Below are positions 9,788 through 15,580 of a stretch of DNA of 64,000 nt, in pieces. Under the pieces are notes generated by a model, which had not been told where the DNA came from, ran no database searches, and worked only from the letters and a program-made list of their open reading frames with translations. Made by a program: the position numbers and the translations under genes. The DNA comes from Litomosoides sigmodontis (taxonomy: Eukaryota; Nematoda; Chromadorea; Rhabditida; Onchocercidae): assembly GCA_963070105.1 (NCBI GenBank), contig OY718804.1, positions 2,520,817 to 2,584,816 on the forward strand. The letters run 5' to 3'. Every line of letters starts with the position of its first letter. Position 1 is the first letter of the stretch.

Positions 9788-12700
9788 ATGCAAACTGGCA
9801 CCTGGCTAGCAGCGATAATGACTTCGCTTCTTGTTATTATCGATAATCAGTACTGCTTATCATATCTTACTGATAGCACTAACACAACGACAACAGCTAC
9901 TATCATCACCAATATTCATATACCAAATGCTATTATCAATGATGAACAGAAAGCGGGTACATCAAACGACTTCAATGGTATTACTCTTTTAATTAGATGA
10001 TAGTAATTTGATTGTTTGTATGTGTTGAAAAAAACGAAATGAAAATTTAGGCATGAAATGAATTGAGTTAGTGAAAAGGGGTCAGATCAATGGAATGCAT
10101 TCATTTATTAGGACAATGAAGGGCTGTTTTATCATTGATGTTAAACAGTTGCTGATATTGATAATTATTCAACTGGGACAGTTTTGATTTGCAACAAATA
10201 AAATTGAATCGTTTGATTGTAATCTTTTAAGTGTACATTTAATATCAATTTACATTTGATACATTTACATCCAATAAAAATTTTACTAATGCAAAAAGTT
10301 TCACACTTTCAAATCTTTTCTTTCCCTCTTCACCTCCTTCTCCTCCACCCTCTCCCTCTCCCTCCTCTCCCAACTTTTTTCTTTCTTTTTTTTTTGGTAG
10401 CAAAATCATAATGAATGATGAATTATCGAAGGGCAAAAGCAAATATGGAAAAAAAATGAGAGCAAAAAAAAAAGAGCAGAAAGCATTTGAATTTTTCAAA
10501 AAGAAAAAATATATGTATATATAGCTAAAGTTTTGATTTAAAAAAAAATTTTTTTTTTTAGGACTTTCTGCGTACAATCGTTTGAGACATTCAGAACGAC
10601 AACGACGACGATACAAGCAAATGTTACAGCAAAAACAAAAGCATCCGCTACACACACATCGTTTTGATGGTAGCAAAATTGACGATAAATTCTTCGACAA
10701 TTTCGGACGATCGCTACTAAATGTCAACAACAACAACAACAACAACAACAACAACAATAACAGTAACAACAACAACAACAACAACAACAACAGAAACAGA
10801 ATTATAAATAACAACAATAATGATAACAATAATGGTGTCATGAGGAATAAGCTGAAAGCTCACCACAGAGTAAGAACTTTTTTCATTAAAGAATTAAAAT
10901 GAAACTAATTGAATTTGATATAATTTCCAGTTATATAAGTTTGAGTTTATTTTTCCGCACTTGAACTTGAACAATTAAAAGTGATGGAATAATTAGAATG
11001 AATTATGAACGATTAATAAAAGAAAAAGAAAAGTGAATGAATGAATGAATTGGTTACTTTTTTTTTGTTCAGTTAGTAGAAAATGCTAAAAGCAAAAAAA
11101 AACAAGAAAACGAATTTTTTAAATTTTTAAAATATTTGTTTTAGCTAAATTATAATTTATTCTTCAATTCTATGCTTTTATCATCGAAGCTTTTTCCTCC
11201 CCCATCATTTCACTCATTGCAGTTAGTTCGGAATAATAACAATTTTAAAATTTCATCGCTCTCGCAGTCAGTCATTTTGTACACAAAAAAGCAAAACGAA
11301 GGCGTAAAAATTTTCTTAAACAAACAACAAATATTTTCCGCTTATCTATTTCTTTCTTCTCTGTCATCCAGCACTATCGATCAATAGGTTGACCGGGTAG
11401 TGACCGTCGGTAGTTTGTCCTCCCATTACTTCCTCTTTCTTCACACATTTCAAACGATAGCAGCAACAGCAATATCAGCAATAACAGTAGTAGTAATGGT
11501 AATTAATAATAATTTAATAATAATAATAATAATAATAATAATAATAATAATAATAATAATAATAATAATAATAATAATAATAATAATAATAATAATAATA
11601 ATAATAATAATAATAATAATAATAATAATAATAATAATAATAATAATAATAATAATAATAATAATAATAATAATAATAATAATAATAATAATAATAATAA
11701 TAATAATAATAATAATAATAATAATAATAATAATAATAATAATAATAATAATAATAATAATAATAATAATAATAATAATAATAATAATAATAATAATAAT
11801 AATAATAATAATAATAATAATAATAATAATAATAATAATAATAATAATAATAAATGATATTAATAATAATAAATGATATTAATAATGATAATAAATGAAA
11901 GACAGTAATAATAACAGTAATACTAATAATCGTGAAAGAGGAGGAATAGTAGCCGGAAGTTCCCCAAGGTTTTTAAAATTTTGCTTAAGCAAAAAGGAAT
12001 TCGCACACTTTTCCTTTACTCTCATTTATGCTAAAAAAAACGATGAAAATTCTGTTGCAGTTTTTTGTGAATGTAATAGGAAAAATAATCGCTAATGATA
12101 TGAATGATTTTTATGAAAAAAGAATGAAATGTGTTAGTAAGGAAGAAGGGAAGAGGGGGAGAAGGAGAATGGAAAAGAAAAAAGAATTATAAAAGAAAAT
12201 ATAGAAATTATGAAATCACACATGGAAATTTTAGTTTAAGCAAAAAAAAGAATTTTTTCTTGCCGATCGTATATTTTGTAGTTTTAAAAAGAAATCGATG
12301 CATTTCTTTTTTTAAATAAAAATTAAGGAAAATTAAAGGCCAACAGTTTTTTTCTCGCACAATTACTAATTAAATTTTTAATTCAGCATGTATTAAATTG
12401 AAGTTAAATGTTGGATTTATAATTTATTTAGTGAAACGAGGAGAAAACAAAATTGCTAAATGGTACCAGTTTCGTTGACAATGTAATAAAGGTGATACGA
12501 CGGAATACACTCAGCTTAGGTCTTATTCTTTCCCATTAACAATTGATGGGATCGGACTGTATAATTTAATTAATTCATTTCCAATAATAATTACATGGAT
12601 AATATTATCATTAAAATTTACATACTGTGCTTTGGAATGTTTGTTTGCTTGGTTGCTTTTTTTTGACGAAGAAATGGTTGAAACTTTTTAATCTCAATTA

Positions 12701-15580: not shown

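Follow-up and report, generated by a model that had tools for sequence, protein, structure and literature searches.

Does the filarial nematode Litomosoides sigmodontis encode a secreted ligand of the Trunk/PTTH kind? The question is raised by a gene at 9788-15580, plus strand, of the 64,000-nucleotide stretch analysed here (the window: C2:2520817-2584816, within a 7-contig genome of 65.9 Mb; contig C2 is OY718804.1 of assembly GCA_963070105.1), in which a first-pass annotation made from the letters alone had seen a PTTH/Trunk-like prohormone. We establish that the gene is real, has a secretion-type start and is conserved across Nematoda. On the basis of its cysteine spacing, short motifs, a cysteine-anchored alignment score and an earlier report of nematode trunk, we think that it is probably a Trunk/PTTH member.

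A six-cysteine protein conserved across Nematoda

A first protein search returned 10 matches, all at E<=1.1e-17, nine of which carry nematode names (Brugia pahangi, Onchocerca volvulus, Thelazia, Anisakis, Plectus, Parascaris, Caenorhabditis bovis, Pristionchus pacificus and Toxocara). A profile made from seven of these matches, trimmed, was run against 5.8 billion proteins and yielded 39 relatives from 1643 candidates. Thirty carry species names, all of them nematode; the other nine are unnamed. The matches range from Trichuris muris, hookworms and Haemonchus to four Caenorhabditis species with close relatives: C. nigoni (P0016, which represents 12 member sequences), C. bovis, C. auriculariae and C. 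sp. 36. Orthologs exist, and a chance open reading frame or artefact was rejected on that ground. The record of the Haemonchus relative is named Protein K01A11.1, a C. elegans-style gene name; it hints that C. elegans may have a relative after all. A literature search on K01A11.1 found no paper.

We aligned 28 of the 39 relatives, omitting P0007, P0010, P0021, P0027, P0032-P0036, P0038 and P0039, whose models are broken or duplicated. The six knot cysteines (C1 to C6) are kept in all 28. The C1-C2 spacing is 25 throughout, C3-C4 is 6 (7 in one relative), C4-C5 is 30 (29 in Trichuris) and C5-C6 is 1; C2-C3 is the variable spacing, at 14 to 20 residues, apart from a Pristionchus model with 38 that possibly retains an intron. 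Also invariant are E..LC at C1, PP before C2, LxCVQ at C4 and the terminal CxCMWP. The nematode origin and the six-cysteine domain ending in C-x-C, both proposed from the single sequence, are thus borne out by its relatives.

Gene structure and precursor

Four plus-strand exons of compatible phase, separated by three introns that are all GT..AG, encode a 277-residue preproprotein, as the first-pass annotation had assembled it:

9788-9977, + strand: exon 1, with the start codon, the signal peptide (about residues 1-23) and the first part of the pro-region
9978-10561, + strand: intron 1, GT..AG; junction continuous in the Brugia pahangi protein P0001
10562-10869, + strand: exon 2, pro-region, with an 11-residue motif that close relatives share and a run rich in asparagine
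10726-10821, + strand: asparagine runs N12, N9 and N5 (residues 119-130, 132-140 and 146-150)
10870-13144, + strand: intron 2, GT..AG, containing a (TAA)n array at 11504-11930
13145-13315, + strand: exon 3, basic site, Cys179 and Cys205 of the cystine-knot domain
13157-13168, + strand: RRER, proposed cleavage site (residues 171-174)
13316-15415, + strand: intron 3, GT..AG, containing CA-rich minisatellites at 13323-14059 (unit lengths 114, 158 and 218 bases)
15416-15580 including the stop codon, + strand: exon 4, Cys225, Cys232, Cys263, Cys265 and a 12-residue C-terminus

The cysteines of the protein are at residues 23 (signal region), 179, 205, 225, 232, 263 and 265. The alignment with B. pahangi P0001 spans all three exon junctions; 105/111 residues of the mature stretch are identical (95%), as are 94 of the 128 aligned in the pro-region. 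The relative P0003, complete at 244 residues, runs uninterrupted on a 1607-base contig; given how the gene is split here, that contig looks like a spliced transcript. The models P0010 (Toxocara), P0038 and P0039 apparently read through an intron, and their alignment is lost right after the Gln that closes exon 3; intron 3 therefore looks old. The gene is apparently single copy at the sensitivity used, since a search of the whole genome with the domain matched, at E<=0.001, only the two exons that encode the domain at this locus.

The predicted signal peptide and pro-region agree with a hydrophobicity peak at residues 7-18, a helix at residues 3-27 in an ortholog's predicted model and an MQTxxW start common to P0001, P0003, P0007, P0010 and P0031. 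Within the pro-region, the asparagine run is longer than in ten aligned relatives. The proposed RRER cleavage site is present, but it is poorly conserved as a furin site: most aligned relatives have KRER or RREK at this place, 11/28 have RxxR, and a dibasic [KR]R directly precedes the domain in 22/28. The precursor thus has the order expected of Trunk/PTTH proteins, a signal peptide, a pro-region, a cleavage site and then a cysteine-rich C-terminal domain, with the basic site partly conserved. Such a protein would be secreted as a pro-protein, losing its signal and then probably being cleaved at the basic site; its C-terminal domain of about 103 residues would fold as a six-cysteine knot with pairs 1-4, 2-5 and 3-6 and serve outside the cell as a Noggin/Trunk/PTTH-type ligand, whose receptor is most likely a tyrosine kinase. 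We infer the cleavage, the disulfide pairing, a dimer, the receptor and any part played in growth or in the timing of moults.

Comparison with PTTH, Trunk and Noggin

The PTTHs of Lepidoptera (Bombyx PTTH, PDB 5aoq chain L) are, like the protein described here, secreted in a pro-form with a C-terminal knot domain. Short motifs correspond between the two: FIETRNC in PTTH and FVEIRC here, C-x5/6-C, KRR and RRR, and a Trp before the last C-x-C. The C1-C2, C3-C4 and C5-C6 spacings are 25, 6 and 1 here versus 22, 5 and 1 in PTTH, so that the Trunk/PTTH pattern of six knot cysteines, with C1-C2 about 22, C3-C4 about 5-7 and a C-x-C end, is recognizable. The knot disulfides of PTTH are 1-4, 2-5 and 3-6. 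Noggin and Noggin-like proteins have comparable spacings of 22 and 7, and their WIPIxYPIISECKC resembles a 15-residue stretch here, but Noggin has a C2-C3 spacing of only 5.

Excerpts of PMC9071555 place Noggin in a single family with Trunk and PTTH, the clip-less members of which act on receptor kinases, and those of PMC8398477 describe a Trunk precursor layout generally like this one. A wider spread of the family is described in parts of PMC8398477, PMC11521371, PMC6425005 and PMC7909313, the last of which contains neither 'nematod' nor 'elegans' in the main text as available. Excerpts of eLife 46113 (2019; PMC6660194) report trunk in many phyla; according to its Figure 2 legend, searches of public protein databases identified trunk in nematodes other than C. 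elegans, whose own genome did not yield it. The same excerpts describe C. elegans as having no PTTH system and mention ecdysteroids reported from parasitic nematodes. A nematode Trunk-type member is consequently not new. Among the literature titles listed, no functional study of the nematode gene was found.

We then compared the family with four lepidopteran PTTHs (P0040-P0043; the set included no Trunk, and the families are unequally sampled), Noggin, Spätzle, NGF and IL-17. With the six cysteines fixed and the stretches between them scored against 1000 shuffles, PTTH gave z 2.96 (4 shuffles reaching the score), Spätzle 2.51 (6), Noggin 2.22 (18) and NGF 1.12 (134). Pairs of the known families served as yardsticks (500 shuffles each): PTTH-Noggin gave 5.75 (0), Spätzle-NGF 2.40 (4), PTTH-Spätzle 1.48 (33), Noggin-Spätzle 0.71 (107), Noggin-NGF 0.62 (130) and PTTH-NGF -0.45 (329). 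PTTH is thus narrowly ahead, at a level also seen for a true but distant pair.

Several observations limit the assignment. The C2-C3 loop is 19 here versus 7 in PTTH and C4-C5 is 30 versus 41; the second cysteine beside C1, which in PTTH forms an interchain bond, is lacking; and the overall match to PTTH is weak. The anchored margin of PTTH over Spätzle is slight. Against Pfam, the window protein gave three weak matches only, all under the cut-offs and to unrelated-looking families (the best among the relatives being Pro-rich_19, E 0.0039). Alignment of shallow profiles with hhalign (four PTTHs, Noggin, two Spätzles, NGF and IL-17A) gave short stretches, none significant. In fold comparison with VIA-align, PTTH ties with IL-17 and the neurotrophins. 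The proposed PTTH/Trunk identity is accordingly the best among the families tried, but is not established.

With HMMER filters on and E<=10, Spaetzle and Noggin matched 0/11 proteins, including the window protein, and 0/28 relatives, and NGF 0/28 relatives; IL17 matched 0/11 proteins, including the window protein, and one of the 28 relatives (E 0.095). The four PTTHs themselves gave one Noggin match over the cut-off and two weak ones, the fourth having none. Among PDB sequences the domain query found one chance match (E 0.44) and the profile query none.

Alternative families

The predicted models support a six-cysteine knot-type domain, and the solved folds nearest to them by VIA-align are IL-17A/F. 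PTTH is not among the best 50 matches listed for the second model, nor Noggin among those listed for either model; neither absence excludes anything. IL-17 also leads when profiles are scored unanchored (z 2.10, versus PTTH 1.24, Noggin 1.21, Spätzle 0.54 and NGF 0.37). The gene might on these grounds encode a diverged cytokine of the IL-17 type that signals through homologues of the IL-17 receptor, which we consider unlikely. Firstly, Pfam IL17 matches the genome clearly at C5:7845272-7845603 (28.6 bits, cut-off 24) and marginally at C2:2928670-2928825 (24.2 bits with neighbours, two internal stops), but not at the ligand locus; these matches are probably the worm's IL-17 gene, which speaks against our gene being its ordinary IL-17. 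Secondly, all six knot cysteines are kept here, whereas IL-17 has fewer and is not known to have the third knot disulfide. Thirdly, when both families are scored on three shared anchors and an N-terminal flank matched between them, PTTH (z 2.52, 13 shuffles) exceeds IL-17 (z 1.98, 21). In addition, three of the four PTTHs match Pfam IL17 weakly too.

A Spätzle- or neurotrophin-type ligand, acting through Toll or Trk-like receptors, would have the same knot fold and C-x-C end, and Spätzle is a close second in the anchored score. The spacings differ from those of the nematode family, however (42/9/11/27 in NGF; C1-C2 36 and C3-C4 13 in Spätzle), the anchored score of NGF is low, neither Pfam profile finds a relative, and the UniRef names of the orthologs conflict with one another (Spaetzle, NGF, EMI domain, Secreted protein), so that we gave them no weight. 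We regard this origin as quite unlikely.

The family could instead be a group of cystine-knot proteins peculiar to nematodes, with a receptor of its own and an origin that is independent or can no longer be resolved. The profile search reached no named arthropod Trunk or PTTH and no named non-nematode at all, and the enlarged C2-C3 loop and the invariant C-terminal CMWP are seen in none of the four PTTHs. Yet the search reaches only relatives that have exact words in common, and the available parts of eLife 46113 report nematode trunk by similarity; we hold such an origin to be quite unlikely.

A candidate receptor

To look for a receptor, kinases of the genome were searched with an approximate Drosophila Torso kinase sequence, which gave 62 matches. 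One receptor tyrosine kinase gene, on the same contig as the ligand (C2 about 8641144-8648703, minus strand; loci L061, L067 and L068), has a split kinase, upstream of which lie a signal peptide with C-x3-C-x11-C-x3-C, FN3-like stretches (among them VPTC and VPVAENVSV) and a membrane span. The corresponding features of Torso are C-x3-C-x10-C-x3-C at its start, VPSC and PENLTV.

This layout is suggestive of Torso, but in pairwise comparison of the kinase RET (213 bits) and FGFR (192) score above the approximate Torso sequence (167). The top match was an EGFR construct (260 bits, in two stretches), and a 12-row kinase tree did not place the candidate. One ectodomain piece matches fn3 weakly (E 0.098), below the unrelated Mcl1_mid (E 0.0025) and Antimicrobial21 (E 0.004); the ectodomain's likeness to the approximate Torso sequence is weak, its local score being reached by 12/500 shuffles and its global score by 57/500, and it matched no PDB sequence. 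Genome searches with FN3_Tor_3rd, an approximate Torso ectodomain, Noggin and Spaetzle were empty and had no working control. A second receptor kinase, at C6:7046, is also nearer FGFR (131 bits) than the approximate Torso sequence (124). We regard the gene on contig C2 as a candidate receptor of the Torso type, at about even odds.

Other features of the window

Beyond the gene, the window holds an (AAT)n array at 18784-20196 (about 470 copies, 99% matches, 1.4 kb) and a (TGTA) array at 15766-16049. On the minus strand lie a Ser/Thr-rich open frame of 922 codons (34053-36821), with six 72-base repeats at 34330-34764 and no Pfam match at E<=0.01, and a Kelch-repeat exon at 46108-46563 (Kelch_4, E 3.9e-6, over the cut-off). 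The window gave no match to an approximate spliced-leader-like pattern, and Rfam and ARAGORN scans of it found nothing.

Implications

It is possible, though we hold this only tentatively, that the nematode phylum, including Caenorhabditis, has retained one copy of a Trunk/PTTH ligand and, with it, a Torso-type kinase; the terminal and moult-timing pair of arthropods would then be ancestral in moulting animals and overlooked in C. elegans, where K01A11.1 is the candidate. Whatever its family, a conserved secreted ligand across the phylum deserves to be named and given a function. Should it prove to be a Trunk/PTTH ligand, the question can be tested in Caenorhabditis, four named species of which have close relatives, and the moult-timing signals of insects and nematodes may have a common ancestral ligand.
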